Virus record (IMG/VR): IMGVR_UViG_3300035661_003553
Span: 1-37,934 of that record
Reading direction: 5' to 3' (one strand)
Origin: a virus
DNA length: 37,934 bases
Part shown: in pieces, positions 2,244-32,721 of the stretch
Numbering within the stretch: position 1 is the stretch's first letter
Layout: each line of letters begins with the position of its first letter
Made by a program: the position numbers and the translations under genes
The notes under the pieces: generated by a model
What the model was told of the DNA's origin: nothing
The model's database searches: none
What the model saw: only the letters and a program-made list of their open reading frames with translations

Positions 2244-2876
2244 CTATCTCCTTTGAGTTGGTGTTATAGTTGGAAATAATTTATGTATTAATTCCTCTGC
2301 GCTTTCATAGATAGAATTCACGTCGAATTCATTAAGCAAGACCGCATCAACATCCTGATAATTGTCTAAGGCAATTTCTGATTCATGGCGAGCATCTCGA
2401 GACGGATCAATATATAAATTACCTTCGCCATCATAGCGCAATATACGCATGATTTTACCGTCAAGACTCTTAATAAAATTCGCTTCATTTAACAGTCTAA
2501 CGTCAGCCACTATTACATTTTCTACGTTCTTGCTTCTTAAACTCTCCAGTGTTTTCGATACGTGTTCTATCCAATAGTCTTCTTTAAAATAGTTGCGACG
2601 AATAGTCCCCCACCATTGCAGAAAATTGCCGTCCTTGTCTTTCATACCATTGGTGATTATTTCCGGGGAAATATAATCTGGTATTGGAATAATTTGGCCA
2701 TTTTCCAGTGTTACCGCATCGTTACCTGTGAGGGTACAATATTTATAGACTTCCTTGGCCTCCCCGTACAAAGCATCAGAAAAGTGAAGAACGACAAATC
2801 CATATTTGTCTCTGAGAAAAGCAGCCGTTGTATCTTTACCGCTTCTTGCTTTACCAGAAATACCTAGAATATTCAT
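2244..2876 (-). CDS. Deoxynucleoside monophosphate kinase (T4 gp1-like)
   Basis: This 210-residue P-loop kinase has the motif GKARSGKDT at residues 8-16, directly after the first beta strand. It is followed by a helix and a HFSDALY segment, as in phage dNMP kinases, which convert dNMPs to dNDPs with ATP. The DVRLLNEANFI segment in the C-terminal half matches the lid/core pattern of the family. Its length fits. It lies between the M16 peptidase (28 nt upstream) and the chaperonin. It would supply dNTP synthesis together with the ribonucleotide reductase elsewhere in the window. Its TAG stop happens to be in frame with the groEL ATG two codons later. I treat this as coincidence because the chaperonin has its own ribosome site. 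Substrate specificity (which bases) cannot be read from sequence. Confidence 0.85.
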   Translation of the reverse strand: MNILGISGKARSGKDTTAAFLRDKYGFVVLHFSDALYGEAKEVYKYCTLTGNDAVTLENGQIIPIPDYISPEIITNGMKDKDGNFLQWWGTIRRNYFKEDYWIEHVSKTLESLRSKNVENVIVADVRLLNEANFIKSLDGKIMRILRYDGEGNLYIDPSRDARHESEIALDNYQDVDAVLLNEFDVNSIYESAEELIHKLFPTITPTQRR

Positions 2877-2904
2877 GCCTATATCCCTATCTTACTTTTC
2901 TGTT

Positions 2905-4197
2905 CTAACGTTTTTCAATAAAATAATGTACTGTATATTTGCTCTTAGCAAAGCGCTTAGCCATTCGTTGCAAACGATTATAGTTAAGATTATCCAACAT
3001 TTTTATTCTATTTTCTAGAGTCAATAGCTTGGCATTAGCTTCAAATTGAGCAGGGGTTGATTCATATGACATAATGACTAGCTCATTGCTAAGGCCATCC
3101 GTTAGACTGTCAATACTGTTATGTGTTAAACAGTAAGTAGTTTTCATACTCATTGATGCCATTTTAACAACTTCTGGGGTTATCGTCTTTACGGCATCTT
3201 TTACGATATTAGCAAGAAGCTTGTGGCTCTTGGTCATCGCCTCCGGCTTTCTCTCCATGGCATACTCAATCCCGAGTAAAATACCTCCATCTACCCTAGA
3301 GATAATGCCGTTACAATCATAACAAATACCGTGATTGCTGCGCAATACCTCATGGGCTCTTGAGCTATTACCAGTAAAAAATATTTCACCAATAGCCAAA
3401 GCATCATACCACGCCTGAGTGCCCACTATTGGACCAGAGGCCTCCATAAAGTGGAATCTTCGTGCCTCAATACCAGAAAGGCTATAATCTGAAAGCTTCC
3501 AAGTCACTATTTGATTGCAATATGCCTTAGCTTTATTTTTATCTAGATGCATTTTTATTTTAGGATCGTATTTTCCAAAGTCTGTCTTTTTCATAAAATC
3601 CTCAATCTCATCCGTAGTCAAATCTCCAACAATTAACACAAAACTCTGATCGCCCCAAACTCCCCACTTTTTATGTGCCCTTTTAAGGTCTGCGACAGTA
3701 ATATAGTCTAAATAATCAGAGCCTATCATTACTCCCTGTTTATATCTGGGGAGTTGCCTTGTAGCCGCTCGCATCGTAACATCTATGAAGGCAGCCGTGT
3801 TATCTGCGTCCAATGCTTCGGCTCGGATTACTTCCCTTTCTCGGTCCCAATTCTGTTGGGTGTAGTTTTCAGTTTTAAGTTGAGCTGTCCACTGTCTTGC
3901 AACTTCATCTAGCGCCTCTAGAGAAACTATCCCTGAAGCGTCCAATCCAGCCATAGCAAACCCGGTAAAAGCATTGATCTTAACACCGACATTCGTCGCC
4001 ATTGCGTTGACGGTATTGTGATCTCCAATAGCATTAAAAACGAGCATGTGCTCAATCGCATGTGCTAGGCCAGGAATGTCCTCATAGGCTGCTCCAGCGT
4101 GAGGAAGAATATATTGCATTCTAAAACATTTTTCAAATGCTCGATAATGAATAACTATTGGCTTCCCTTTTATTTTAATAACGTTAATTTCGGCCAC
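2905..4197 (-). CDS. M16-family zinc metallopeptidase (pitrilysin-like)
   Basis: The 430-residue protein carries the inverted zinc motif HAIEH at residues 46-50. A Glu in VIRAE at residue 127 is 77 residues beyond the second His, the spacing of the third zinc ligand in M16 peptidases, so the N-terminal half should be catalytically competent. The C-terminal half (about 220-430) fits the second, non-catalytic M16 domain; one subunit of this length resembles bacterial processing-peptidase-like M16B proteins. There is no signal peptide, so it is probably cytoplasmic. The start is GTG with GAGGAAG 7 nt upstream. It is the first gene after the promoter at 4224-4252, heading a cluster with dNMP kinase and GroEL. 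A role in trimming phage proteins is inference. Confidence 0.9.
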   Translation of the reverse strand: MAEINVIKIKGKPIVIHYRAFEKCFRMQYILPHAGAAYEDIPGLAHAIEHMLVFNAIGDHNTVNAMATNVGVKINAFTGFAMAGLDASGIVSLEALDEVARQWTAQLKTENYTQQNWDREREVIRAEALDADNTAAFIDVTMRAATRQLPRYKQGVMIGSDYLDYITVADLKRAHKKWGVWGDQSFVLIVGDLTTDEIEDFMKKTDFGKYDPKIKMHLDKNKAKAYCNQIVTWKLSDYSLSGIEARRFHFMEASGPIVGTQAWYDALAIGEIFFTGNSSRAHEVLRSNHGICYDCNGIISRVDGGILLGIEYAMERKPEAMTKSHKLLANIVKDAVKTITPEVVKMASMSMKTTYCLTHNSIDSLTDGLSNELVIMSYESTPAQFEANAKLLTLENRIKMLDNLNYNRLQRMAKRFAKSKYTVHYFIEKR

Positions 4198-4223
4198 TGC
4201 TCTTCCTCTCTTTCTTTATAATT

Positions 4224-4252
4224 AATATAAGCCAAATGAAGGTAAAAGTCAA
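4224..4252 (-). promoter_or_regulatory. Promoter P1, TTGACT-N17-TATATT
   Basis: On the minus strand the -35 box TTGACT (4247-4252) and -10 box TATATT (4224-4229) are separated by exactly 17 bp. The site lies just past the terminator at 4271-4305 and 27 bp before the GTG of the M16 gene, so it should drive the M16-dNMP kinase-GroEL cluster. Its boxes are identical to four other sites here. Confidence 0.8.
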
Positions 4253-4270
4253 TATCTTCCAGACCTTTAT

Positions 4271-4305
4271 AAAAAATACCGCCCTCCCCGGGGAGGAGAG
4301 GGCGG
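4271..4305 (-). terminator. Intrinsic terminator after the 4331-4975 gene pair
   Basis: Read on the minus strand, CCGCCCTC (from 4305) pairs perfectly with GAGGGCGG (to 4279) around a GC-rich loop. Two bases later a run of six T follows (4271-4276). It lies 26 bp past the stop of the small gene at 4331 and directly before promoter P1, marking a clean boundary between two transcription units. Confidence 0.88.
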
Positions 4306-4330
4306 CTTGAGACAATCCACGCGGCCTTAT

Positions 4331-4582
4331 TTAATCTTTCTTTCCGCCATCGTTTTCGTCTTCAGTCTCTCCAGAATCTGGCATCACTGAGATACTGATA
4401 GATGTATAAAGCTCCATCATTGATGCTTTATTGGCCTCTCTTACGGCCTCGTCGATTGTCTTTCCCACTGCACTCAACTCGTCAATGCTGCCTGAAAATG
4501 TAATCTCCAACTTCTTTTTTGAGGTTAGAACCTTCTTAATCTTTAGGCCTCTAATCTCCGCAACCTTTTCGTCAGCGCTCAT
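4331..4582 (-). CDS. Small hypothetical acidic-tailed protein
   Basis: No family recognised. The product is about 83 residues from the ATG at 4580-4582, which has GGAGG 8 nt upstream. A GTG three codons earlier overlaps that ribosome site and is unlikely to be used. The body alternates charged helix and short strands (a KKKLEITFSGS strand, then a helix with DEAVREANKAS), ending in a Glu/Asp/Gly-rich disordered tail. It follows the 125-aa gene by 15 nt and is the last gene before the terminator at 4271, so the pair forms a two-gene unit from promoter P2. Confidence 0.75.
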   Translation of the reverse strand: MSADEKVAEIRGLKIKKVLTSKKKLEITFSGSIDELSAVGKTIDEAVREANKASMMELYTSISISVMPDSGETEDENDGGKKD

Positions 4583-4597
4583 CAATGTCACCTCCTA

Positions 4598-4975
4598 TTA
4601 CTTCAACTTGCTAAGGCGCTTGAGAGCTACCTTAGACACTGAGCCCTTCCGCACTGAGGTTGCTCGAACAAACTGTTCCTGACGAGTCGTGGGGTGGAAC
4701 CAGCCTTTTGCCTGGAAGGCCCTGCGAATGCGGGACACAGACTCCAGGGGAGGATAGCCACCGTTCTTAGCCACGTTAACATCCAACATGAGCCGGTCGT
4801 CTACTATTTCCACTCCAAAATACTTGTTAAGTATTGTGGCATAAAGCAGAACGTCGTTGCTACGGCAGCCGACATTAGACGTTAGGACATTCTCAATCTG
4901 GCGTGACAGAGAGTCCTTCTTTGTTAGCTTTTGGGGCGGCGTAGAGCTGGTTTTGACCTTGTTCTTCTTCATCAT
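4598..4975 (-). CDS. Hypothetical basic protein, possible winged-helix
   Basis: The 125-residue protein has a very Lys-rich N-terminus (about residues 1-25). A helical section follows, then a YPPLESVSRIRRAFQAKG segment near residues 74-91. Many phage proteins of unknown function share a similar P-x-ES-x-x-R-x-R pattern, which resembles a DNA-binding recognition helix. The basic C-terminus (residues 105-125) would also suit nucleic-acid binding. It could be an early regulator, but I do not recognise a family. ATG start with GGGAG upstream, 39 bp past promoter P2. Confidence 0.72.
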   Translation of the reverse strand: MMKKNKVKTSSTPPQKLTKKDSLSRQIENVLTSNVGCRSNDVLLYATILNKYFGVEIVDDRLMLDVNVAKNGGYPPLESVSRIRRAFQAKGWFHPTTRQEQFVRATSVRKGSVSKVALKRLSKLK

Positions 4976-4991
4976 TTCTTTTCTCCCTTCT

Positions 4992-5003
4992 GCGCTTTTG
5001 CGC
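4992..5003 (-). promoter_or_regulatory. Small 5'-leader hairpin
   Basis: GCGC-AAAA-GCGC on the minus strand lies about 10-20 nt after the -10 box of promoter P2, within the short leader of the 125-aa gene. It could protect the 5' end of the mRNA. Short stem, so modest confidence. Confidence 0.35.
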
Positions 5004-5013
5004 TCTCATGGGT

Positions 5014-5042
5014 AATATAATACTAAGATCGACAAAAGTCAA
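5014..5042 (-). promoter_or_regulatory. Promoter P2, TTGACT-N17-TATATT
   Basis: -35 TTGACT at 5037-5042 and -10 TATATT at 5014-5019 (minus strand), spacer 17. It heads the 4975-4331 pair and lies back to back with the plus-strand promoter at 5104, making a divergent control region of about 60 bp. Confidence 0.8.
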
Positions 5043-5103
5043 TGACGATAATCCATTTCTCTACGGCTCACACGCGCCTGCCACTACACCCAAAGCGAAG
5101 TAC

Positions 5104-5132
5104 TTGACGAAAAGAAAACTATGTATTATATT
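5104..5132 (+). promoter_or_regulatory. Plus-strand promoter P6, TTGACG-N17-TATATT
   Basis: -35 TTGACG (5104-5109), 17-bp spacer, -10 TATATT (5127-5132). This is the same arrangement as the minus-strand promoters but in the opposite direction. No protein gene follows on the plus strand; an intrinsic terminator follows about 45 bp later. Confidence 0.72.
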
Positions 5133-5138
5133 AATGGT

Positions 5139-5208
5139 ACTAGGGCAGTAAAACTACCCACACTTCGTACCACGGCGAAGCCTCCCAATACTCGACAGGG
5201 AGGCTTTT
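5139..5208 (+). ncRNA. Candidate small structured RNA, about 70 nt
   Basis: The stretch between promoter P6 and its terminator is predicted to be transcribed from about 5139 to 5208. The only short frame from an ATG (5134) stops after five codons, so it is non-coding. A 5' hairpin forms from GGG-C-AGT (5143-5149) and ACT-A-CCC (5153-5159) with an AAA loop. GGTAC (5136-5140) could also pair with GTACC (5167-5171) if the start is a few bases earlier. The 3' hairpin is the terminator. The left arm of the terminator holds CCTCC, which is complementary to Shine-Dalgarno sequences. Function unknown; an RNA regulator of phage or host genes is inference. I see no match to a named RNA family. Confidence 0.6.
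5178..5208 (+). terminator. Intrinsic terminator of the plus-strand small RNA
   Basis: AAGCCTCCC (5178-5186) pairs perfectly with GGGAGGCTT (5198-5206) across an 11-nt loop, followed by TT (U run 5205-5208). The U run exists only in the plus direction. It lies 64 bp beyond the stop of the converging minus-strand gene at 5272. Confidence 0.75.
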
Positions 5209-5271
5209 CCATGAACGGCACACATATGTTCTCTTCGACTAAGACAATATGCTATTTTCGACAATAAATAG

Positions 5272-5526
5272 TTAATGATTGCGATCTTCTTTGGATGGCT
5301 CTGTATACTTGAATACTTTCCAGTAGACTAGACGTCCCACTCTAAAACTACACTTAGTGCCGTCGTGAAGTGTCAATTCGCCCATATAATTCCTATTCTC
5401 TACGGCGGCAGTAATGGCGTTATATGCCGCCATAGCCTCTGCTTGGCTCTCATATTTAACCTGCTCATGAGATCCATTGTTAAAGAATAGCCTTACCACA
5501 AAATTTCTTTCGGCAGGTTTTGTCAT
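5272..5526 (-). CDS. Small hypothetical protein
   Basis: The 84-residue product is unrecognised. It alternates strands and one central helix (residues 24-45, Ala/Glu rich) and ends in a charged tail. It could be a compact alpha/beta domain. The ATG has AAGGAG 9 nt upstream and lies two bases after the TAA of the upstream metallopeptidase-like gene, so the two are in one unit. It is the last gene before the convergent small RNA. Confidence 0.75.
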   Translation of the reverse strand: MTKPAERNFVVRLFFNNGSHEQVKYESQAEAMAAYNAITAAVENRNYMGELTLHDGTKCSFRVGRLVYWKVFKYTEPSKEDRNH

Positions 5527-5527
5527 T

Positions 5528-5863
5528 TTAATTCTCCTTTTTCGTGCTTTCTGCTGAAACTACAGAATTGTATATAAAGTAGGCAAGAAGGTCATAGTCT
5601 TCTGGGTCAGCTAATTTAGTCCCATCTTCTGCCATGCTTTCTACGGTATGCAATAATTCGTGTATCATTGTAATTGTCTGCTCTTTGACTGGCTGTGCAG
5701 ATGATACAAAAATTTTATATTCTGCCGAGGTTTCCACCGGGACAACCTCTCCCATCTTTAGAGATGGAAGTCTCTTACGAATAATCTCTATAATATTATC
5801 TCCGCTAAGCTTAAGTATAGCAAGCGATTCAGGCTTTCTCATCCGCCCAAGGAGCGTCTTCAT
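5528..5863 (-). CDS. Small HEXXH zinc metallopeptidase-like protein
   Basis: The 111-residue protein contains IHELLHTVE at residues 67-75, a zinc-peptidase HEXXH motif (His68, Glu69, His72) on a helix. Acidic residues 79-92 follow and could give a third ligand, but I cannot assign it. The N-terminal half is strand-rich. The size suggests a minimal peptidase domain like those in small phage or ImmA-like proteins. It overlaps the upstream gene by 35 nt and has no clear ribosome site, so translation is probably coupled. A second ATG eight codons later is possible. Whether it cleaves anything is unknown. Confidence 0.7.
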   Translation of the reverse strand: MKTLLGRMRKPESLAILKLSGDNIIEIIRKRLPSLKMGEVVPVETSAEYKIFVSSAQPVKEQTITMIHELLHTVESMAEDGTKLADPEDYDLLAYFIYNSVVSAESTKKEN

Positions 5864-6092
5864 TAATTAATAAATCCAAACGCTCAGCATCCCTGCACAT
5901 AGAATTAAAGGTCACTATATTATCCATATAGAGCTTATGACCAAGTTTACTCAACATGTCAAATTGTTTACGAGTATAAAGCTTAGGTCTAAATTTTTCT
6001 GGAGATAAAGCAAAAATCTCAAAGGGAATTTTTAATAATTCCGAAGTGTTATCGCAGCCTGAACCGCAACCAGTAGAACAACAATTAGGCAT
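5829..6092 (-). CDS. Small protein with Cys-rich N-terminus
   Basis: The 87-residue product begins MPNCCSTGCGSGCD, with five cysteines in the first 13 residues, followed by a helical domain (residues 15-87) with no recognisable family. The Cys cluster could bind zinc or be lipidated only if exported, but there is no signal peptide. The ATG has AAGGAGAG upstream. It follows the Pro-rich gene by 14 nt, whose product also starts with a Cys cluster, and it overlaps the small HEXXH gene by 35 nt. Confidence 0.75.
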   Translation of the reverse strand: MPNCCSTGCGSGCDNTSELLKIPFEIFALSPEKFRPKLYTRKQFDMLSKLGHKLYMDNIVTFNSMCRDAERLDLLINEDAPWADEKA

Positions 6093-6106
6093 TACTTCTC
6101 TCCTTT

Positions 6107-6400
6107 CTAATACTGTCTATTCTGACTGCGCCTTAGAGCCAAGAGAGCTTCGCGCTTTTGCTTAATTAAGTCCGTTATTGTTTCATGCGCGCCAATTGGA
6201 GTTGAGGGCGTAGATGACACGGCAAGTATCTCAACTTGTTTAGACGCAGGGGCAACTGGAGATGGAACTGGGGGATTCGGTGAAGAGACGACGGATGAAG
6301 AGACGGGTGAAGGAACAGCAGTGGCAATCTGTGGAGGCGGAGAAACGCTTTGAGCAACTGGCTTTTCCACTTTACGATATCCACCACAACCGCACGGCAT
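6107..6400 (-). CDS. Small Cys/Gly-start, Pro/Ser-rich protein
   Basis: The 97-residue product starts MPCGCGG, followed by a long Pro/Ser/Val disordered stretch (about residues 12-65) and a C-terminal basic helix (70-97, rich in Lys, Arg and Leu). The layout suggests a tethering or adaptor protein: a small metal-binding head, a linker and a binding helix. No family recognised. ATG start with AAGGGAGG upstream. It follows a hairpin at 6440 and a 105-bp spacer after the zinc-protein gene. Confidence 0.7.
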   Translation of the reverse strand: MPCGCGGYRKVEKPVAQSVSPPPQIATAVPSPVSSSVVSSPNPPVPSPVAPASKQVEILAVSSTPSTPIGAHETITDLIKQKREALLALRRSQNRQY

Positions 6401-6439
6401 GAGGCACCTCCCTTAATGTCAAGAATTATTAATATATAA

Positions 6440-6459
6440 GCCACCTATTTCTAGGTGGC
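6440..6459 (-). other. Perfect 8-bp hairpin between genes
   Basis: GCCACCTA and TAGGTGGC pair around a TTTC/GAAA tetraloop. On the minus strand it is followed by an AT-rich but not T-only stretch (TTATATATT), so it could be a weak terminator or an RNA-processing/stability element between the genes at 6506 and 6400. Confidence 0.5.
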
Positions 6460-6505
6460 TCGTCTTTCTCAATTGTTTCAATTCCTAAAGTCCAAGAATA
6501 AAATT

Positions 6506-7012
6506 TCAGCTATCTTCATCGGTCGAGCCAGGAGCGACCAAGCTCTCTAGCTTTTCTAATAATTTCATCATAACGTCGCTATTTTTACCCTCATAAATAG
6601 AACGCATCAGAGCATCGTGATCCTCGTCGGATAATTTAACACTTTCAATATGATATTCAGTATAATTATCTTTAATCTCTCTGCTAATCGTCAAAAGTCT
6701 CTTACTAATAAAAGCCGACAGAGTAAGACCATCCTTTTTGGCCAATACAGTTAACTGCCTAATAAGCCCCGGCTTAAAGTCAATAAAACCTAGCACCCCG
6801 CCCTTCGCAAGCCCAATAGCATAAATACCTTTAAAAAGTTTCATGCCATTTTGACAATATGGACAGGACGCAGAAGCGTGACAATTTTTCTTCTGCTTCT
6901 TACCGTCGACATCAACATAATGAGCAGCATAAGGCCTTTCGGTATCTGGCACAATTACAAATGTTTGTGGCTTATCTCCCAAACGAATAAAACTAGATTC
7001 ATTTCCTCTCAT
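6506..7012 (-). CDS. Zinc-binding protein, possibly single-stranded-DNA-binding-like
   Basis: The 168-residue protein has a strand-rich N-terminus. A Cys/His set follows at Cys44, His45, Cys50 and Cys53 (CPYC), reminiscent of the zinc site of T4 gp32-type proteins. Beyond it lie strands (YAIGLAKGGVLGFIDF) and helices, ending in an acidic tail with Asp-Glu-Asp. An acidic C-terminus is typical of single-stranded-DNA-binding proteins. That assignment is inference; a small transcription or recombination factor is equally possible. The ATG has AAGGAAGG upstream inside the preceding zinc-ribbon gene, which it overlaps by 14 nt. Confidence 0.75.
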   Translation of the reverse strand: MRGNESSFIRLGDKPQTFVIVPDTERPYAAHYVDVDGKKQKKNCHASASCPYCQNGMKLFKGIYAIGLAKGGVLGFIDFKPGLIRQLTVLAKKDGLTLSAFISKRLLTISREIKDNYTEYHIESVKLSDEDHDALMRSIYEGKNSDVMMKLLEKLESLVAPGSTDEDS

Positions 7013-7163
7013 TGCCCTTCCTTTCTGGCTCCCTGATTAACTCAGACATCACTTGAGTCTTCCTATGACATTTATTACATTTAAAAATATACACAGTCTC
7101 ATACTTTTGTACTAAAACAGTGTCGCCACCGCAATGAGAACACTTTACTTCATCTCTTGTCAT
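6999..7163 (-). CDS. 54-residue zinc-ribbon protein
   Basis: A short frame from ATG 7161-7163 to TGA 6999-7001 encodes 54 residues with two CxxC pairs (Cys8/Cys11 and Cys29/Cys32) 17 residues apart, a classic zinc ribbon, followed by a charged helix. AAAGGAG lies 8 nt upstream. It overlaps both neighbours by 14 nt, the same overlap as other joints in this cluster, which supports it being real. Likely nucleic-acid or protein binding. Confidence 0.8.
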   Translation of the reverse strand: MTRDEVKCSHCGGDTVLVQKYETVYIFKCNKCHRKTQVMSELIREPERKGNERK

Positions 7164-7332
7164 TTGCCTTCTCCTTTTTTCTCGTTAATAATAAGCGTTT
7201 AAAGACATGACCTCCTTTATGAACGGGGGCAGAGATATAACTTCCAGGTCTCACGCTCCAATGAGAGTAATAACATATCCAAGTGGTCAGAATAGAATCG
7301 AAAGGAATCTCTTGCTCTTTAACTCTTGCCAC
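7150..7332 (-). CDS. Small hypothetical protein, paralogue of the next gene upstream
   Basis: The product is about 60 residues. It shares a core with the 61-aa product of 7319-7504: IPF, then LTTWICY, then a G-x-Y block and GGHV near the C-terminus. The pair is a tandem duplication. The GTG at 7330-7332 is preferred because GGAG lies 7 nt before it; an ATG two codons earlier is almost on top of that site. The C-terminus is strongly basic. No family recognised. It overlaps both neighbours. Confidence 0.68.
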   Translation of the reverse strand: MARVKEQEIPFDSILTTWICYYSHWSVRPGSYISAPVHKGGHVFKRLLLTRKKEKANDKR

Positions 7333-7504
7333 TTGCATTCTCCTTTACTGTTGATAGTTTATAGACATGGCCTCCTTCATAAGCGGCATCTGTCATATAA
7401 TGCCTAGGTCCAAGGGGCAAACGATAGCTATAACATATCCAAGTAGTTAAAACAGCATTGAAAGGAATCTTTTGCCCTTCATTCAAAATATCATTAAAAC
7501 TCAT
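7319..7504 (-). CDS. Small hypothetical protein, tandem paralogue
   Basis: The 61-residue product is the first gene after promoter P3. It shares IPF, LTTWICY and GGHV blocks with the downstream 60-aa protein, with different linkers. GGGAGGG precedes the ATG, and the leader from the predicted start is only about 15 nt. Unknown function; the early position and small size suit a host-takeover or regulatory protein, which is inference. Confidence 0.7.
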   Translation of the reverse strand: MSFNDILNEGQKIPFNAVLTTWICYSYRLPLGPRHYMTDAAYEGGHVYKLSTVKENASGKS

Positions 7505-7523
7505 TCTCTATGCCCTCCCTATG

Positions 7524-7552
7524 AATATAATTCTTAAACGAAAGTTTGTCAA
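7524..7552 (-). promoter_or_regulatory. Promoter P3, TTGACA-N17-TATATT
   Basis: -35 TTGACA (7547-7552), 17-bp spacer, -10 TATATT (7524-7529) on the minus strand, between the reductase gene stop and the small-gene cluster 7504-5272. Confidence 0.8.
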
Positions 7553-7578
7553 TAGCTGAGGCGCGATAGGGAAAGCCA

Positions 7579-10500
7579 TCAAACATGAGTGACCGCACAA
7601 GCTCCACCCGCGCACGCCGCTTGCTCAGTTAAGGCTGTATTATCCTCATCTTCAATAATCTCAGATAAGTTAATATCTTTCACTTTGCGAAGCATTTTTT
7701 CATATGTTTCCTCTGTACACTCTTCGAAGGGCATCTGAACGTAAGTATGATCATTAAGAGGAAGAACAGTAATCCCAGTATAACAATTCCTATTTTTCCA
7801 TAACCACTCCCTAGCCTCATCCCAATCATTTGGGCCTAGGGACACAGTAACACTCACATTGTGATGATTGTCTCCTTCATAGTGCCCAGGCGTAATCCAC
7901 TCATCTGCAAACTTCTTAACCCGCTCTAATAGCTGAATAGGCGTGCTATTTTTTAGGGTAATGGCTCCTTCCGGTGCCTTTTGTGGAATAGAAATAACTG
8001 CCTGAGTAGACGGCTTTAATGCATCGTCCTCAACAAGATCTGGACATACTTTTATCAGGTATCGATACAGAGCTTCATTCTTTCCCACTCTCATTCGCCT
8101 AATATAATATTGACTGTGCCACTCATGAATGCCAGAAGAGCAACCAAATACCAGCGATGTAGTTCCACTGGGCTTAATGCATGTAACCCTAGCGGCCCTG
8201 TTAATATTTATCAGTTTGGCAACACGTATATTTTCTTCTACACATATATTGGCCGCTTCTTCTATATTAAGCTTGAGTACGCCACCAGAGCAAATACCAG
8301 TCATACTCACGCCCAATAATGCATCTTTCTCACAATTCTTCTTCCACGTATCTCTGAGATAGTGAAAGTCTGTATAAGATGCCTGTAATGTCCCAATGAA
8401 AGCTGCTGCTTTACATCTATCATTCAACTCTTCCTGATTATTTACATCAGAAACATTGACTTCTGTTAGGTTACACTGCTTAGTTAGCACGTTTCCGAAT
8501 AGACATTGGTGCGTTTCGGGTTCCGTAAGACAGAATGACTTATGCGTTCCTGGCAGCCTGGTTATCGACTTCACTACTTGGTTTTTACCCTTATACTTGG
8601 CATTGCAGCCCTCCGACAGAGCCAGACGATGTGAGGGAATCTCACTGGCATTCGGAATATGCAAATACCAGAGATCCTGCTTCCGACGAATCTGCTTCTC
8701 CGCAATAGTTGTAAATCGTGAATCTGCCTTAGCGCATATATTAAGTGAAGATTGAATGCCACACTTTGTTAAGAGAAGTTGAGCATCACGAAGTTGACCT
8801 TTTTTACCATACAGACGGCACCCCCTATTGGCCTGTGAGCCATCTGCATCTATCCAGCCTGCCATGAAAAATAGGATAGACTTTTTAGACCAAGAAAACA
8901 CTTCTCTTGGAAGGGAATCATGCCATTTGAGCATTCTACATAGCTCGATTCTTAGCTCATTAAAATGGTGGGGGATTCTGTTTATATCTGTCTTTTTGTA
9001 ACTTTTCAATGAACCTATAGAGCCATCACCAAGGGCATATCCATAGTCATATGCCAGCGGTTCATCTGTACCACCTGCATCATATAGCACATTAGCTCTT
9101 GGCACACTTAGTGGATACTTAGAATTCTTGAGAAGGCTTCTGAGTTGGTCTGTAGTTACTTCACTGTATTCTTTCTGGAATCGATGTTTAACTAGCCACT
9201 TGTGATTACCAGTGACATCGAGATAGCTTCCGTCGGATAGAGAAACCCTGTAAAGAACATCATTCGTCCCCGTCTGAAATGGAGTCACTGTGGCCCAGTT
9301 TTTCCCATTCCAAATTTCGATTTTTTGGTTTACTGCCTCTTCAATAGGCACAATACCAGTCTTCGTGATAATAGGGGTATTTCCAGCCACGCACATCTGA
9401 TTGGACTTTAGAGATATCTCTGAGCAATTGCCCGTAACGCAATTGCTTAGTTGGAAGCAATGGGTTTCATCATATACAGAAATATCCCATACATCCTCCT
9501 TAATATCTGTAATTTCTACACTCTTAATCCGTATATTCCTCTGGAAAAATTGAATATTGTTATCTTTGAAAGATTTCAATTTGCTATCTTTCTCTTTATG
9601 TGTCAATTTGAACAGATAATTGAAATGATTGATCGACTCCGCATTTATATTAAGATGATAGTATGTATAGTCTTTCTCATGCTGCCCACCGTTTGATAAC
9701 GTTTTACGAGTTGTTTGCGATGTTATAGACGTTTTGATACCATAGAAGCCGAACATGTCCCTTAAGTCTTCCACTAACTTAACATAGGATGAATAAAATA
9801 GAGACCTGATGTGCCCCGCGTTGGAGCCAGCAGAGAGTAGACCATCCACAAATCCTTTTCTGAAAGCCTCAGACCCATTTTCCCAAATAACCTTAGGAAG
9901 GCCAAAAGACTTGTGCTCTACACCAAATTTATCAAAATATTCTCTAGCCGATTGTCCCTGAAAGTTTGCTTCATAGTCCCCGTTGCGGCGCAGAGTAAAA
10001 TGAATTTCTGGAGAAATTTTATTAGCTAAAATAGTTTTAATTTTTTCCAAAATACCACTTTCAGCATCTTTTTGGGACACAACTAACCCATACTGGCGCA
10101 CACCATCATCGGCTCCATCAGCAATCCATCCGTCGCCATAAAGCCATCCGATCAAAAACCCATCATCAGCATCTCCAAGCTGTCCGTCGAACATGCTATC
10201 TTCCGTAAGAAATGGCAATCTCATACCAGCTTTCAATTCTGTCGTCTCTTTCTTTTCCCAGCTTTTGTTCCAGCCACGATTAACTAATACCGGCCACTTA
10301 TGCTCCGGGGTACAATAATATTCTTTCCCATTTTCAAGGGTAATTTTATATAGGCTCTTGCCTCTCCCGCTTAAGAAGCACTTTGCAGGCGCATATTTAC
10401 CATAGAGGTTTTTCACCTCAAATGATTTGCCCTCCAAGCTTTCAATGTTTTTTACACCATCTTTAGTCATTATTCTAGTCCCGGCGCGAAGTGACGGGTT

Positions 10501-12393
10501 TATTCCAAGCTCTTTGTCATTTGTCCAGAAAATTCCCGGCTCGCCAGTATTAGAAATTTGTATTTTTTTCCACAATGCTTTAAATTCTTTCTCTTTCATT
10601 CTATGCCTGAGGAGAACAACTGAGTTATTAGCTCTAGCGCGTTGAGGATTTAATTCATACCAATGGTTATACTTACAAGTGAGCATTTCTTCGTCATCCA
10701 AGCTAAAGAGAGATATCATAGCCGCACGACGTATACCACCAGCAAGAACGGCATCAGCTATATAACACATAATGTCATGGCACTCAAGAGGGGTAAGCTT
10801 TGATCCATCTGGTTTACGGTCGAGTATCTTTTGTATATTATGAAGACAATCCTTAAGAGGTTCTGGGCCAGGAGCTTTACCGCCAGATGTGATCAACCTA
10901 GCCCCCTTAGGTCTAATGTCCCTAAAATCAAAATCTGGAAGAGTTTTATTATCCAAATATGCCCGAATTAATGCCTTAACTGCGTCTGCCCAACCCTCAA
11001 TAGAGTCTCCAACGAGATATCTTCGTTTTTTTATCGGTTTATGAATTACTGGCAATTTCTCAACATGGTGAGATTGAACAGAGTAGCCTACTCCACTCCC
11101 ACCTAAAAGTAAAAACATTGCCTCTGAGAATGCGTGAAGATCATCCACGGCCATATAAGAGCAATTGTAAGACCTAGATGGGGCTATTTCCATTGGTTTG
11201 CCGGCAAATTGCATGCTGTTGTGCGTTACTATCATTCTATCCCCAGCAAGAAAGCTATTATCATTAGAGTCTACATGGAAACAAGTCGCATTTCCAGTGC
11301 CGATATATTTTACCGAAGAAACAGTCCTATAGTTTGCCTCCTCGTCGGCCTTGATGAGCTTAGGCAACGTCTCTAGCTTTTTCGGCAATCTGAATACCGG
11401 CAGTTCCGTCAAGAAAGATATAGTTGAAACCTTACTAACTCTCTCAATATATTGAATCCCCAAAGAACTAAGAAGCTCTTTGAACCCTGCTATCAAAGCC
11501 ATGTTAGTATTGCGGAACAAATATCTTCCGCCAACACAAGAACCGTTTGTATCCATAAGCCCTTGTACCAAACCGATTCTCTGATCAATAGACCCCTGCA
11601 TATATATCCTTGGGATGTGTTTATTAGTTTCAAGAGAATACATAGCAAGCATTGGCTTAAGCCCAATCACGTTAAATGCATACTTATTTTTTACGTCTGC
11701 CGGTTGAATCTTAAACCCTGTCTTTATATACTGCTCCGCCATAAACTCCATATCGGCAGGCTCCGTTGCGTACTGGGTTCCGTTACTATGCCCATTACCC
11801 AACCACAATCCTAAAATATAGGGATCGATATGCAGCTCTACGCTATCTCTTTGGATAGGTTTTGGATTATGAATATATATATTGCCTTTGTGCGATCGGC
11901 TATAATAATCTTTGATAAATTTGGTGTCTACAACTCTAGGCGCTTTATCGTATTTCAGGTCATCATTCGTTTTCACAATCCAAAGATGTTCACTGCAAGC
12001 AACTAGATGTGAATCATCGTTGAAACTTATTTGATATAGCTCCTTATCATGAAAGTGAGTAACTCCCAATACCTTTGTTTCGGTCCCTTCCGATGAGTAT
12101 AAAATATCTCCTTCCTGAATATCTTTAGCAAGCTTCCACCCATATTTAGTCATTATCGGCGTAGAGTCTTCCAGTGCCCTCATACTTGGAACCACCTTCT
12201 TAGCATATACAAACTCATACGCCTTTTTGATTTCCTGCTCCAGCGAAGGAAACTTTTTAATATGCATTTCCATATTCCTAGTAACAATTTCTTCCCACGT
12301 TTCACGGCGTTTCAGCCCCGGAATATACTTCGCATATTTTGAATATACTGTAATATCCGAAAGAATTTTACGAGACAACTCTGACTTATCCAT
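7579..12393 (-). CDS. nrdJ: Class II (cobalamin-dependent) ribonucleotide reductase with three inteins
   Basis: The 1604-residue precursor contains 622 residues of reductase exteins (1-72, 393-633, 990-1000, 1307-1604). The spliced enzyme resembles the monomeric Lactobacillus leichmannii type. Visible motifs: PSMR/SMQFAG, YNCS with Cys411 as the first redox Cys, GGSGVGYSVQ, and the active-site N-P-C-S-E (Asn632, Pro633, then Cys990, Ser991, Glu992 after splicing). The second redox Cys is 1307, and CKPSGT-like and LPLNDHTY segments are present. A C-terminal CAGGAC pair (Cys1594, Cys1599) matches the C-x4-C reductant of class II enzymes. After splicing, the active-site Cys and second redox Cys are 11 residues apart, as in Cys408/Cys419 of the model enzyme. 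It makes deoxyribonucleotides for phage replication. It follows the DnaB-like helicase, with ribosome site AAAGGAG. Splicing must remove all three inserts for activity. Confidence 0.95.
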   Translation of the reverse strand: MDKSELSRKILSDITVYSKYAKYIPGLKRRETWEEIVTRNMEMHIKKFPSLEQEIKKAYEFVYAKKVVPSMRALEDSTPIMTKYGWKLAKDIQEGDILYSSEGTETKVLGVTHFHDKELYQISFNDDSHLVACSEHLWIVKTNDDLKYDKAPRVVDTKFIKDYYSRSHKGNIYIHNPKPIQRDSVELHIDPYILGLWLGNGHSNGTQYATEPADMEFMAEQYIKTGFKIQPADVKNKYAFNVIGLKPMLAMYSLETNKHIPRIYMQGSIDQRIGLVQGLMDTNGSCVGGRYLFRNTNMALIAGFKELLSSLGIQYIERVSKVSTISFLTELPVFRLPKKLETLPKLIKADEEANYRTVSSVKYIGTGNATCFHVDSNDNSFLAGDRMIVTHNSMQFAGKPMEIAPSRSYNCSYMAVDDLHAFSEAMFLLLGGSGVGYSVQSHHVEKLPVIHKPIKKRRYLVGDSIEGWADAVKALIRAYLDNKTLPDFDFRDIRPKGARLITSGGKAPGPEPLKDCLHNIQKILDRKPDGSKLTPLECHDIMCYIADAVLAGGIRRAAMISLFSLDDEEMLTCKYNHWYELNPQRARANNSVVLLRHRMKEKEFKALWKKIQISNTGEPGIFWTNDKELGINPSLRAGTRIMTKDGVKNIESLEGKSFEVKNLYGKYAPAKCFLSGRGKSLYKITLENGKEYYCTPEHKWPVLVNRGWNKSWEKKETTELKAGMRLPFLTEDSMFDGQLGDADDGFLIGWLYGDGWIADGADDGVRQYGLVVSQKDAESGILEKIKTILANKISPEIHFTLRRNGDYEANFQGQSAREYFDKFGVEHKSFGLPKVIWENGSEAFRKGFVDGLLSAGSNAGHIRSLFYSSYVKLVEDLRDMFGFYGIKTSITSQTTRKTLSNGGQHEKDYTYYHLNINAESINHFNYLFKLTHKEKDSKLKSFKDNNIQFFQRNIRIKSVEITDIKEDVWDISVYDETHCFQLSNCVTGNCSEISLKSNQMCVAGNTPIITKTGIVPIEEAVNQKIEIWNGKNWATVTPFQTGTNDVLYRVSLSDGSYLDVTGNHKWLVKHRFQKEYSEVTTDQLRSLLKNSKYPLSVPRANVLYDAGGTDEPLAYDYGYALGDGSIGSLKSYKKTDINRIPHHFNELRIELCRMLKWHDSLPREVFSWSKKSILFFMAGWIDADGSQANRGCRLYGKKGQLRDAQLLLTKCGIQSSLNICAKADSRFTTIAEKQIRRKQDLWYLHIPNASEIPSHRLALSEGCNAKYKGKNQVVKSITRLPGTHKSFCLTEPETHQCLFGNVLTKQCNLTEVNVSDVNNQEELNDRCKAAAFIGTLQASYTDFHYLRDTWKKNCEKDALLGVSMTGICSGGVLKLNIEEAANICVEENIRVAKLININRAARVTCIKPSGTTSLVFGCSSGIHEWHSQYYIRRMRVGKNEALYRYLIKVCPDLVEDDALKPSTQAVISIPQKAPEGAITLKNSTPIQLLERVKKFADEWITPGHYEGDNHHNVSVTVSLGPNDWDEAREWLWKNRNCYTGITVLPLNDHTYVQMPFEECTEETYEKMLRKVKDINLSEIIEDEDNTALTEQAACAGGACAVTHV
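8476..9393 (-). other. Intein 3 of the reductase (residues 1001-1306), Gln-terminal
   Basis: The 306-residue insert starts with Cys1001 (CVAGNTPIIT) and ends VLTKQ before Cys1307, the second redox Cys of the reductase. The terminal residue is Gln, not Asn, and Lys replaces the penultimate His. Gln-ended inteins are known but uncommon. Both LAGLIDADG motifs are intact (YALGDGS, Asp1123, and WIDADGS, Asp1184), so an active homing endonuclease is likely. Confidence 0.88.
9427..10494 (-). other. Intein 2 of the reductase (residues 634-989), next to the catalytic Cys
   Basis: The 356-residue insert starts with Ser634 (SLRAGTRIMT) and ends VTGN before Cys990, which is the active-site Cys of the reductase. 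Penultimate residue is Gly instead of His. Block B has TPEHKW. A LAGLIDADG pair is present: LIGWLYGDG keeps its Asp (754), while the second motif GFVDGLLSAGS has lost the catalytic Asp. The homing nuclease is therefore probably decaying. Confidence 0.88.
11218..12177 (-). other. Intein 1 of the reductase (residues 73-392), class 3 type
   Basis: The 320-residue insert begins with Ala where most inteins have Cys or Ser (ALEDSTPIMT) and ends VTHN before Ser393. It carries a Trp in block B (EHLW, Trp138), a Cys in block F (TCFHVD, Cys371) and a Thr before the final His-Asn (Thr390). This is the Trp-Cys-Thr set of class 3 inteins, which start splicing from the block F Cys. The LAGLIDADG endonuclease motifs are LGLWLGNG and GLMDTNGS. 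In both, the metal-binding Asp is Asn (Asn200, Asn283), so the nuclease is probably dead. Confidence 0.88.
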
Positions 12394-24867: not shown

Positions 24868-25902
24868 TTAGATAAGATGAAAAACTACATCATCTATTCC
24901 AGAGCTTTCTAGGGACATCAGTGTTCCCTTTGCGCGGCGCTCTTTCGCCGCGCAATTGACTATGACAGATGCTTTTGCAATGTTAAATCCTGCATTAGCA
25001 TCTGCATGGTCAAGATGTCCGCAATGCGGACATCTGAAGCTTTTTCCTTTTCTATTTCCTAGCTCTCCACATTTTGAACAAGTCTGGCTAGTATTAAAAG
25101 GATTCACTTCTTCTACAGGTATTCCTTGCAAAAGAGCTTTATATTTTATGAATGATTTCAATTGATAAAAAGCCCAAGAGTTCAAGGAATAGCGTTTAGT
25201 TGTGTCTTTTATATTTCTTGTTTTGCGTCTAATCCCACTTAAGTCTTCTAGCTTAATTCCACAATTATTTTTAACTGCTTCCTGAACAATTGTCCTTGAT
25301 ATTTTATGATTCAAGTCTCTTACTATCCGAGATTCTCTGTTCTTGACTTGTTTTAATTGTCTGTAAGCTTTCTTCTTTTGAAGTTTTTCTCTAATGCTTT
25401 TGTATTTTAAATGAGTATGTTGTGCTTTCTTTCCTAGTTTTAAAACTTTCCCTGTGATAGGATTGGAGATCACGGCGCAATGCGCCGTCTCATTTAAGTC
25501 TATTCCAAGGTATCCTTGAATGTCTTGTTTTGGCGGCTCTGCCGCCGAAATACTAACATAAGCATAAGTATTATCTAGCTCAATTTGATTAACCTTGATA
25601 AAATCTTGAAACCGATAATTGAGTCTTAACTTAAGACTAGGAATGTAAATCGTCTGATTGGTTTTATCAACTGATATTCCCTGGTTTGGAATGGTTAGTT
25701 TAACGTTCTTAACTTTTTTTGCTTTATGATTTCTTGAGTATTTTCTTAAAATTTGATTTGAGATAATAGACTTTAATCCAAATTGAGAAACATCTTTACT
25801 TGAAATAGTTCGATATTTTAAAGCGTATTCTGCGACGCTACGCGCCGCAGAAAGCTCTGAAGAAAAATCACGAGAGTGTTTTATTTTATACGTTAAAATC
25901 AT
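24868..25902 (-). CDS. tnpB: TnpB RNA-guided nuclease
   Basis: The 344-residue protein is an apparently intact TnpB. RuvC residues are Asp135 (GIDLN), Glu219 (KLEDL) and Asp301 (HADANAG). The zinc finger has Cys275/Cys278 and Cys291/Cys294. With its guide RNA it would cut DNA next to a motif matching the insertion site, here probably ending TTAC, helping the element persist. It runs in the same direction as phage genes but is clearly an insertion. The coding sequence carries four GC-rich palindromes unlike its AT-rich background. Confidence 0.94.
   Translation of the reverse strand: MILTYKIKHSRDFSSELSAARSVAEYALKYRTISSKDVSQFGLKSIISNQILRKYSRNHKAKKVKNVKLTIPNQGISVDKTNQTIYIPSLKLRLNYRFQDFIKVNQIELDNTYAYVSISAAEPPKQDIQGYLGIDLNETAHCAVISNPITGKVLKLGKKAQHTHLKYKSIREKLQKKKAYRQLKQVKNRESRIVRDLNHKISRTIVQEAVKNNCGIKLEDLSGIRRKTRNIKDTTKRYSLNSWAFYQLKSFIKYKALLQGIPVEEVNPFNTSQTCSKCGELGNRKGKSFRCPHCGHLDHADANAGFNIAKASVIVNCAAKERRAKGTLMSLESSGIDDVVFHLI
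24931..24954. repeat. GC-rich palindrome in tnpB (9-bp stem)
   Basis: TGCGCGGCG and CGCCGCGCA around a CTCTTT loop. One of four such palindromes in this gene; the others are at 25472-25488, 25532-25546 and 25828-25852. Confidence 0.7.
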
Positions 25903-29695: not shown

Positions 29696-32686
29696 CTAAA
29701 CAAAATTAACATAGACCGTCGAATTTGCTGGACGAACCATCGAAATTAAGTTTGTGATTAATACCTTATCCAGTGGAAAACTAAAGGGATTAAGCACATT
29801 AACGGTAAGCTCAAAATTGCGTCCGAATTCATCCTGTAGATTTGTAAAGGTCATTGCCTCAATAGCGGATATATTAAAATCATATCCTAACGTTACACGG
29901 CTATCGCTCAGAGAAATAGGTTGTTGACGTTGATAGGCGGCTATTTCCATAGTAGTTAGGGGCGCGTTCATAATGGCAAATTGATCTATCAACACCTGAC
30001 CTGGATAACGCCCGTTAATGTCTCCCCCAATATATATAGCTGTAAAATCAGACACATTACTAATAAACTGCCCGTTTATTTCTTTAACACTAGTCTTACT
30101 CTTCACGGCATTTAGCCACTGCGTTGGCTCAGTATCGTATTTTTGCGTAGGTTGCTCATTCATGAGGTCTAACCAGTCATAGAATGTACCGCTATAAACC
30201 TGGTTAGAAAATGTTAAAATTCCGTTAACATATGACGAAGTTTGGTACGGAACCCCAGCTACAAGCTGATTAAAAAAGCTCTGTAGCCCCTCTATTGTAC
30301 GTGGAAACTTTGTACCTGGATTGCCAACAGACACTGTGCTAGGATCAACTATCGTACCCAGTTTATCTGCGATAAACTTATTGACCCTGGCTTTTACCGT
30401 ATGAGTCTTGCCATCATCTCCAACAAATGTAGAATCACCATAATCCCCAGATAATCTTTCTTCAGCCGTTACTTCTTCTATGCCGAGAGTAGCACCTGTG
30501 TCATATTTCAACAGACTGCGCAACTCTCCATTGACATATAAACGCATAAAATTAGCAGCGGGAGAAGATGAATTGTTCCACGTGATAGCAACATGGTTAT
30601 ATTCATTGCCATTCAAGTCCTTAGAGGACAATGGGCAATGAATGGCAAACTTATCCGTTCGCACAGAATTAGTTCCAGAAATAGGAGTAAAGCCAACAAT
30701 TTCAAATGTCAAATTATCTATTTCGTCTATGTATAAAGAAAAGGAAGCTGCAAGACCATTGGAGCCAATAAAAGGCTGCATATCCACGATGTAGTATTTA
30801 GTTCCCCTTACTTTGCACAGTCTTTTCACCCACATTTGGATTGTGCCTGTCGTTATACTAAAATATCTTATATTGGGAACTATCAGTGGGGTCCCACTAA
30901 AAACCCCAGCCTGGCCAAAAAGAGAATCCGTTAAAAAAATGCCAGAATAAAAAGGATAAAAAGAAGCAAAATTATCATAGCAACCATCAAAATGTACAAC
31001 CATTAAATTATGCCGATTGTTATCCACAAAGGGGGCCAGCCTATTATTTGTTTTGACTGGACTAATACCCAAAGAATTAGAAACCAAATCATTATTGAAT
31101 GCTTTATCTAATAGCCTTTGTTCAAGTAAAATAGCATCGGCAGGATAGTAAGAATCGTAAACATAGCCAGCGTCATATTTGGGTTTGTCAATTCCTAGAT
31201 GCGGGGCTAAGTCGTATTTCATTTGAGAAGAAGAGGAACCCAAATATAAAGAACGTCCCGTTTTTTTCAGTTTAATGTCAAGTCCGGTATCATATTCAAA
31301 AGAATATTTACCTGGGGGAAGCAAACCATCCGTGCCTTCTACAGAAAAGGAAAAAGACAATACAGCATTAACCTTATTGGCACTAATATCTACATAGTAA
31401 TATCGGGAGAAATCACCACCGCTACCAACAAAATACGTCCCGCTCTGAGTAATGGTAATAGACTTCCCTACGTCTCCCGTGCTCCATACATAGGAACCAT
31501 TACCGCCCGAGGCCGTAGCTATTACCCACTTATCTTGTGCGCTATTATCTGCCCATGTAAAAGTAATTTCTAGTGGTTGTACTGTAGCGGTTTGAAGGGC
31601 AAGAGAATGTTGCCCGCCCCCCGCGATGGCCGTAATCCCCGTGAGCCCTGAAACCTGGACTGGGACATTGCTATCGGTGTTGGCCCCGTTGTCGAGTTCA
31701 CCGCCACCGTTATACCCGTTATACCCCCAGGCCCAGACCGTACCATCCTGTTTCAAGGCGAGGGAATGATCGTCACCCGCCGCGATGGCCGTAATTCCAG
31801 TTAAACCTGAAACCTGGACAGGGACATTGCTATCGGTATTGGTCCCGTTGCCGAGTTCGCCGTCACCGTTATACCCACAAGCCCAAACCGTCCCATCACT
31901 CTTCAAGACAAGAGAATAACTATCGCCAGCTGCGATGGCCGTGATCCCCCCCATGAGCCCTGAGACCTGGACAGGGACATTGCTATCGGTGTTGGTCCCA
32001 TTGCCGAATTGGCCGTTGCCATTCGAGCCCCACGCCCAGACCGTCCCGTCACTTTTCAAGGCGAGGGAATGGTCAGAACCCCCCGCGATGGCCGTAACGC
32101 CAGTAAGCCCTGAAACCTGGACTGGGACATTGCTGTTGGTGTTTGTCTCGTTGCCGAGTTGGCCCCAATAATTATACCCCCACGCCCAAACCGTCCCGTC
32201 ATTTTTCAATGCAAGGGAATGTTTTTCTCCCCCCGCGATAGCCGTTATCCCCGTAAGCCCTGAAACCTGAACGGGCACATAGCTATTGGTGTTGGTCCCG
32301 TTGCCGAGTTGGCCCCAATAATTATCCCCCCACGCCCAGACTGTTCCGTCACTTTTTAGGGCAAGGGAATGCAACTCTCCACCCGCAATGGCCGTTACCC
32401 CAGTGAGCCCTGAAACCTGGACGGGGACATTGCTTGAGGCGTTGGTCCCGTTGCCAAGTTGACCAGAAGCATTCAACCCCCAGGCCCACGCCGCGCCGTC
32501 ATTCCTTATGGCAAGGGAATGACACCAGCCGCCCGCAATTTTCGTAATTCCCGTAAGATTAGAAACCTGGACGGGGACATTGCTACTGGTGTTGGTTCCG
32601 TTGCCGAGTTGGCCGTTACCGTTATCCCCCCACGCCAGCACCAAATCACTATCCGTAAGACCAGAAATATTAACATTAGTAGTCAT
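29696..32686 (-). CDS. RCC1-repeat and LamG-like virion/adhesion protein
   Basis: The product is about 996 residues. Seven RCC1-type repeats of about 50 residues (roughly 14-375) each contain AWGxNxxGQLGNG, a VPVQVSxLTGITAIAGG step and HSLALKxDG, and should close a beta-propeller. A short Ig/PKD-like domain follows (about 380-450). A LamG-like jelly-roll region (about 560-800) has IQMWVKR and a MRLYVNGELRS segment. Such domains bind proteins or glycans, so a receptor-binding or fibre role is likely. The ATG at 32684-32686 has AAGG 7 nt upstream and overlaps a 12-codon frame as ATGA. Base composition of the repeat region is visibly more GC-rich than its surroundings. Confidence 0.85.
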   Translation of the reverse strand: MTTNVNISGLTDSDLVLAWGDNGNGQLGNGTNTSSNVPVQVSNLTGITKIAGGWCHSLAIRNDGAAWAWGLNASGQLGNGTNASSNVPVQVSGLTGVTAIAGGELHSLALKSDGTVWAWGDNYWGQLGNGTNTNSYVPVQVSGLTGITAIAGGEKHSLALKNDGTVWAWGYNYWGQLGNETNTNSNVPVQVSGLTGVTAIAGGSDHSLALKSDGTVWAWGSNGNGQFGNGTNTDSNVPVQVSGLMGGITAIAAGDSYSLVLKSDGTVWACGYNGDGELGNGTNTDSNVPVQVSGLTGITAIAAGDDHSLALKQDGTVWAWGYNGYNGGGELDNGANTDSNVPVQVSGLTGITAIAGGGQHSLALQTATVQPLEITFTWADNSAQDKWVIATASGGNGSYVWSTGDVGKSITITQSGTYFVGSGGDFSRYYYVDISANKVNAVLSFSFSVEGTDGLLPPGKYSFEYDTGLDIKLKKTGRSLYLGSSSSQMKYDLAPHLGIDKPKYDAGYVYDSYYPADAILLEQRLLDKAFNNDLVSNSLGISPVKTNNRLAPFVDNNRHNLMVVHFDGCYDNFASFYPFYSGIFLTDSLFGQAGVFSGTPLIVPNIRYFSITTGTIQMWVKRLCKVRGTKYYIVDMQPFIGSNGLAASFSLYIDEIDNLTFEIVGFTPISGTNSVRTDKFAIHCPLSSKDLNGNEYNHVAITWNNSSSPAANFMRLYVNGELRSLLKYDTGATLGIEEVTAEERLSGDYGDSTFVGDDGKTHTVKARVNKFIADKLGTIVDPSTVSVGNPGTKFPRTIEGLQSFFNQLVAGVPYQTSSYVNGILTFSNQVYSGTFYDWLDLMNEQPTQKYDTEPTQWLNAVKSKTSVKEINGQFISNVSDFTAIYIGGDINGRYPGQVLIDQFAIMNAPLTTMEIAAYQRQQPISLSDSRVTLGYDFNISAIEAMTFTNLQDEFGRNFELTVNVLNPFSFPLDKVLITNLISMVRPANSTVYVNFV
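31590..32660 (-). repeat. Tandem array of about 150-bp RCC1-coding units
   Basis: Seven units with a spacing near 150 bp, each marked by a GCGATGGCCGT-like block on the plus strand (for example near 31625, 31780, 31935, 32087, 32237, 32387 and 32535). Neighbouring units are nearly identical in places, and the array matches the one at 37560-37934. Confidence 0.85.
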
Positions 32687-32721
32687 TGGCACGCCTTAGT
32701 CCGCTTGTCGTTACGTGGCAT
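32683..32721 (-). CDS. Possible 12-residue peptide coupled to the RCC1 gene
   Basis: ATG 32719-32721 has GGAAGGA 5 nt upstream and a 12-codon frame whose TGA overlaps the ATG of the RCC1-repeat gene (ATGA). The good ribosome site and exact stop/start overlap suggest translational coupling. Too short to judge by composition. Confidence 0.35.
   Translation of the reverse strand: MPRNDKRTKACQ

Follow-up and report, generated by a model that had tools for sequence, protein, structure and literature searches.

We identified a B12-dependent (class II) ribonucleotide reductase (RNR) gene in an uncultured phage that has very probably been invaded separately by three inteins, and whose precursor would be spliced to a 622-aa enzyme. 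The gene lies at positions 7579..12393 on the minus strand of IMG/VR record IMGVR_UViG_3300035661_003553, the whole of which (37,934 nucleotides) was analysed and is called the window below, and it encodes an NrdJ/RTPR-type precursor of 1604 aa. One of the inteins has the features of splicing class 3 and the other two those of class 1.

The three in-frame inteins measure 320, 356 and 306 aa (inteins 1 to 3), occupy precursor residues 73-392, 634-989 and 1001-1306, and make up 982 of the 1604 residues (61%). Intein splicing and LAGLIDADG domains were detected in the precursor by domain search. Read from the start of the gene, with all features on the minus strand and a slash marking each insertion point, extein 1 (12178..12393; 72 aa, ending in VVPSMR) is followed by intein 1 (11218..12177; class 3, site MR/S), extein 2 (10495..11217; 241 aa), intein 2 (9427..10494; class 1, site NP/C), extein 3 (9394..9426; the 11 residues CSEISLKSNQM), intein 3 (8476..9393; class 1, site M/CNL) and extein 4 (7582..8475; 298 aa). 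Cutting the precursor at the splice junctions and joining the exteins gives a reductase of 622 aa. The end residues are Ala...Thr-His-Asn/Ser for intein 1, Ser...Thr-Gly-Asn/Cys for intein 2 and Cys...Thr-Lys-Gln/Cys for intein 3, and the junction residues are correct at all three sites within a single 4.8 kb open frame. An AAAGGAG-like ribosome-binding site is found just upstream of the ATG. An earlier, sequence-only reading of the window had given the same gene boundaries and end residues, and its intein lengths, 61% intein share and 622-aa product were all reproduced exactly. An Rfam search of the whole window found no introns or other RNA, and a promoter and terminator scan returned no surplus relative to shuffled sequence.

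The best family model of the spliced protein, by far, was TIGR02505 (adenosylcobalamin-dependent RTPR). Its score of 268 bits falls below the curated cut-off of 340, yet no other model came close, and we have therefore filed the protein as RTPR-type and not as a confirmed equivalog. When the spliced sequence was aligned to the RTPR of L. leichmannii (1l1l), Cys91 (extein 2), Cys314, Cys325, Cys612 and Cys617 (the latter pair at the end of extein 4) corresponded to Cys119, Cys408, Cys419, Cys731 and Cys736, and Glu316 to Glu410; all six catalytic residues of the reductase are kept. In RTPR, Cys408 bears the thiyl radical, Cys119 and Cys419 are the redox pair, and Cys731 and Cys736 act as the C-terminal shuttle. 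Intein 2 is inserted directly before the equivalent of Cys408, which is the first residue of extein 3, and intein 3 directly before the equivalent of Cys419, with only 11 extein residues between them. From these positions, both inteins would take catalytic thiols of the host enzyme as their +1 nucleophiles. Placement immediately ahead of a catalytic cysteine recurs among the inteins of viral class II RNRs, and the Cys119 equivalent is also directly preceded by an intein in relatives such as those at IMG/VR loci L193, L194 and L199.

The joined exteins could be aligned without a break to the intein-less protein of Microcystis phage Mel-JY01 (61% identity over 616 aa), and they share 62-64% identity with the products of 80 IMG/VR loci, all 80 of which are without the three segments. 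Since related viral reductases lack these segments, they are insertions, and the possibility that they are ordinary inserted domains, which the sequence-only reading had named as grounds for rejecting its proposal that a phage class II RNR carries three inteins, is ruled out.

A second, independent contig from another sample (IMGVR_UViG_3300035180_002927) is 99.98% identical to the window over 25.9 kb. It includes the junction between extein 1 and intein 1 and stops inside intein 1, at window position 11990, which could be due to chance or could reflect an intein that varies within the population. For most of intein 1, and for the whole of inteins 2 and 3, the sequence comes from a single assembly. 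A chimeric assembly of intein-bearing relatives might be suspected from this single coverage and from the break of the sister contig inside intein 1, but we find it barely credible, given that the first junction is present in the independent assembly, each of the junctions coincides precisely with an in-frame splice site, and the GC content of the inteins (0.40-0.43) matches that of the exteins (0.41). The same lack of a GC difference means that the insertions cannot be dated by composition. When the sequence of each intein was used as a query against IMG/VR, the sister contig was the only match, and a separate source for these inteins was found in no collection by such scans; their relatives were then collected by IMG/VR profile scans.

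The three inteins fall into three separate clades in a tree of 75 inteins: intein 1 in the class 3 clade (support 100/100), intein 2 among RNR inteins inserted at NP/C (100/100), and intein 3 with inteins of phage class I RNRs (99/84). Holding all three in one clade costs 222 log-likelihood units and is rejected (AU p 6e-53). At the level of the phylogeny, the supported clades and the AU test show that the inteins have separate origins and arose from three independent invasions, and the duplication of one intein is ruled out. The sequence-only reading had reached the same view from the differing end residues, which are a weak argument when taken alone, and had set it against the case in which the three inteins are one another's closest relatives, a grouping that the tree does not show. 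Its description of three chemistries is only partly correct: there are three distinct sets of end residues, but only two splicing classes, because inteins 2 (Ser1/Asn) and 3 (Cys1/Gln) both belong to class 1.

Class 3 inteins, whose definition and mechanism have been described previously (PMC5222942; PMC6195587), are recognised by the lack of a nucleophile at position 1 and by a WCT-type residue set together with Ser or Thr at +1 (PMC5222942). Intein 1 has Ala1, His64 (B:10), Trp66 (B:12), Cys299 (F:4) and Thr318-His319-Asn320, followed by Ser+1. The WCT triplet (Trp66, Cys299 and Thr318), the His at B:10 and the Asn are each found in 84 of 84 relatives, and in each of the 57 relatives that could be aligned at position 1, Ala stands there instead of the usual Cys, Ser or Thr. 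In the tree, intein 1 groups with 24 class 3 inteins in a monophyletic clade. Although it fell below the Pfam and NCBIfam cut-offs when searched alone, it matches phage inteins over its full length (E about 1e-40), the nearest known relatives being inteins of phage terminases and of a Cas4-type exonuclease (32-34% identity). An AlphaFold model (pLDDT 94.6, pTM 0.92) matched PI-SceI along its length in a structure search against crystal structures; its match to class 3 DnaB inteins covers the splicing domain. On the grounds of full-length homology, the WCT motif and the structure model, we assign intein 1 to class 3, in agreement with the sequence-only reading. In both of its LAGLIDADG motifs, LGLWLGNG (11791..11814) and GLMDTNG (11542..11562), the catalytic Asp is replaced by Asn, while Asp occupies these positions in 82/84 and 83/84 relatives, respectively, and only one relative (L125) shares Asn at both. 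The endonuclease of intein 1 is thus predicted to be dead and the intein immobile. Residue 61 (precursor residue 133, B:7) is Cys, where the relatives have Asp in 62/84 cases and Cys in 13/84; this residue may act as a redox partner for the catalytic Cys299.

Intein 2 has the class 1 features Ser1, TxxH (Thr62/His65), a Gly-Asn end (Asn356) and Cys+1. Its one close relative among sequenced phages is an intein in the NrdJ of MW202615 (Podoviridae sp. ctwe8250, Manatee Spring), which is 41% identical and shares the NP/C site, Ser1 and the Gly-Asn end. The host reductases of these two inteins are only about 27% identical. Because the inteins are more alike than the genes that carry them, this comparison indicates that intein 2 has moved laterally, by homing, between divergent reductase genes. 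A profile scan of IMG/VR recovered 26 relatives, all within diverse viral RNRs, 25 of them at the NP/C site and the remaining one truncated at its start; nearly all begin with SLR and end with TGN/C, and many lie in reductases that are 57-67% identical to that of the window. This family and the MW202615 intein are 37-45% identical to intein 2, and their host genes have one or another subset of the insertion sites filled. One genome scan with the intein 2 profile and narrow patterns returned no match, which is weak evidence. In the region of the second LAGLIDADG motif (FVDGLLSAGS, 9823..9852), the catalytic Asp that is kept in 24/26 relatives has been lost, and the endonuclease is probably dead and the intein immobile.

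Intein 3 also shows class 1 features (Cys1, TxxH with Thr61/His64, and Cys+1), but its last residue is Gln306 instead of the Asn of the class. We regard this ending as normal for its family, since the inteins of phage class I RNRs (ICP1, Staphylococcus phages, CcrColossus) mostly end in Thr-Gly-Gln/Cys, and 20 of 22 alignable relatives end in Gln. These inteins share the Cys-Val start of intein 3 and are 26-28% identical to it; most of them precede the cysteine of an NL/C site, in contrast to the M/CNL site of a class II RNR in the window. Intein 3 also differs in its penultimate Lys, where all 22 alignable relatives have Gly, although this position is known to vary among Gly, Lys and Ser in phage class 1 inteins (PMC5050341). 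Given a branch length of 1.93 and at most 29% identity to any relative, its exact relatives are unsure. Both catalytic Asp residues are present in its LAGLIDADG motifs (9022-9042 and 8839-8859), so that its endonuclease is predicted to be competent and the intein is possibly still mobile.

The long branch and unusual penultimate Lys of intein 3, together with the degenerate endonuclease domains of inteins 1 and 2, could also be read as signs of a decaying pseudogene, in which at least one intein (for example the Lys-Gln intein 3, or the crowded pair of inteins 2 and 3) is left unspliced and no active reductase is made; the intein-bearing nrdA of Campylobacter phages has been described as degenerating (PMC3653736). 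We consider this unlikely for the present gene, whose 4.8 kb frame is open and preceded by a good ribosome-binding site, and in which the splice nucleophiles and the catalytic residues of the reductase are all kept. Moreover, a Gln-ending class 1 RNR intein, that of CIV, can splice efficiently (PMC4031507). We infer that all three inteins are spliced.

A single gene appears to hold three inteins at three stages of the homing cycle, with an endonuclease that is dead in one, probably dead in another and intact in the third. If two of the three endonucleases are dead, homing alone does not explain why the inteins have been retained, and they could instead have been kept as a post-translational switch that delays splicing, and hence the supply of dNTPs, until, for example, conditions are reducing. 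The second cysteine that may lie next to the block-F Cys299 in the active site of intein 1, its recurrence at B:7 in a minority of relatives, and the exposure of redox cysteines of the reductase by inteins 2 and 3 would fit such a role, and a class 3 DnaB intein is sensitive to oxidation through its block-F Cys (PMC6195587). However, a dead endonuclease is equally expected as a neutral stage of the homing cycle, in which precise loss is rare, and we judge selection for a switch to be distinctly improbable.

The reading that we prefer is that a large uncultured phage carries a gene for a monomeric B12-dependent reductase that was invaded separately by three inteins, each formerly a spreading LAGLIDADG homing element and each now at a different stage of decay. 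Translation would yield a single inactive 1604-aa precursor. Intein 1 would follow the class 3 route, in which the block-F Cys299 attacks the bond between Arg72 and Ala73, the N-extein is passed to Ser+1, and Asn320 cyclises. Intein 2 would follow the class 1 route through Ser1, then the thiyl-radical cysteine of the reductase as the +1 residue, then cyclisation of Asn, and intein 3 would do so through Cys1, then the second active-site cysteine of the reductase, then cyclisation of Gln. The three excisions would leave the 622-aa reductase.

Several neighbouring genes in the window are also worth recording. A tubulin/FtsZ-type phage gene (20069-21373) encodes a TubZ-like protein whose nearest solved relative is RepX/TubZ and whose only match among sequenced phages is in Bacillus phage G (26%). 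The DnaB helicase of the window is likewise closest to phage G by E-value, and these two affinities hint at a very large phage genome as the source of the window. A GroEL-type chaperonin (cpn60) gene, unusual in phage genomes, is present at 579-2240, and a TnpB/IS605-type gene with a Cas12f1-like TNB domain (24868-25902) lies among the tail-side genes. Two genes near the tail genes (29696-32692 and 36999-37874) encode RCC1-repeat proteins, and their DNA repeats are similar to each other.

The sequence-only reading had also held this mix of inteins to be unusual in one phage gene. As a claim about multiple inteins, this goes too far. A 217.7 kb contig (IMGVR_UViG_3300017963_000192; locus L194) encodes, at 2289-8096, a 1936-aa viral class II RNR interrupted by four inteins (sites YN/C, GGRA/C, NP/C and PSG/C), the second of which lacks a LAGLIDADG motif and has a zinc-finger/HNH-like segment. 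Locus L196 (IMGVR_UViG_3300033143_005193, 3267-8654) encodes a viral B12-type RNR (NrdJ_Z/PRK08665-like; 1796 aa) that carries three inteins, one of them with an HNH-like insert, and four further loci (L193, L199, L214 and L243) have two inteins per RNR. The two larger proteins resemble the present one in including a member of the intein 2 family at NP/C, but Cys or Ser is the first residue of all of their inteins, which are class 1-like, and none is at MR/S or M/CNL. The Trichodesmium erythraeum reductase, a cellular cyanobacterial gene, also carries several inteins, and we know of no class 3 member among them. The number given for it, as cited in PMC1635734, is four. Two putative inteins have been described in the nrdA of a Campylobacter phage (PMC3653736). 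Inteins of any kind are rare in marine viral RNRs, with 8 reported among 18,717 sequences in a 2026 preprint (PMC12918982).

What stands of the claim is narrower, namely the presence of a class 3 intein within an RNR, a combination found nowhere else in the collections searched. When the complete precursor was compared by tblastn with 50,697 phage records, no reductase with an I1-type intein was among the best matches listed, and a record combining the two would exceed the query coverage of nearly all of those matches. None of 60 matches spread over the 724 phage records matching intein 1 is annotated as an RNR, and an RNR flanks none of the top 80 class 3 loci from IMG/VR. No insertion occurs at the PSMR or CNL site in the full-length class II relatives from the intein 2 and intein 3 sets, and the open-access literature naming both class 3 inteins and RNRs reports no class 3 intein inside an RNR. 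The known phage class 3 inteins of terminases, Cas4/RecB-type nucleases and helicases (for example in Synechococcus phage B23, Mycobacterium phage NelitzaMV and Streptomyces phage Frankenweenie) are 32-34% identical to intein 1 over its full length and share its WCT and LAGLIDADG layout, but nearly all keep both catalytic Asp residues and none of the rows examined is in an RNR. The closest parallel is DnaB of M. smegmatis, which also combines a class 3 intein (DnaBi1, with Ser+1) and a class 1 intein (DnaBi2), although its host is a helicase ATPase, it has two inteins and not three, and DnaBi1 lacks an endonuclease (PMC6195587). These results support, without proving, that no class 3 intein had been seen in an RNR before intein 1, which lies at the new site MR/S.

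In conclusion, we see about even chances that the class 3 intein of this gene is the first known from any RNR, showing that such inteins can leave phage terminases, helicases and nucleases for an unrelated enzyme, and that three independent splicing reactions gate dNTP synthesis in this phage. Class 3 inteins are believed to descend from a single event in a phage gene and to have remained largely within DNA-packaging and helicase proteins; finding one in a reductase would extend the range of their known targets. The gene would also offer a comparison of class 3 and class 1 splicing side by side. If the reading is true, two of the three gating reactions would involve catalytic thiols of the reductase itself, separated by 11 residues.
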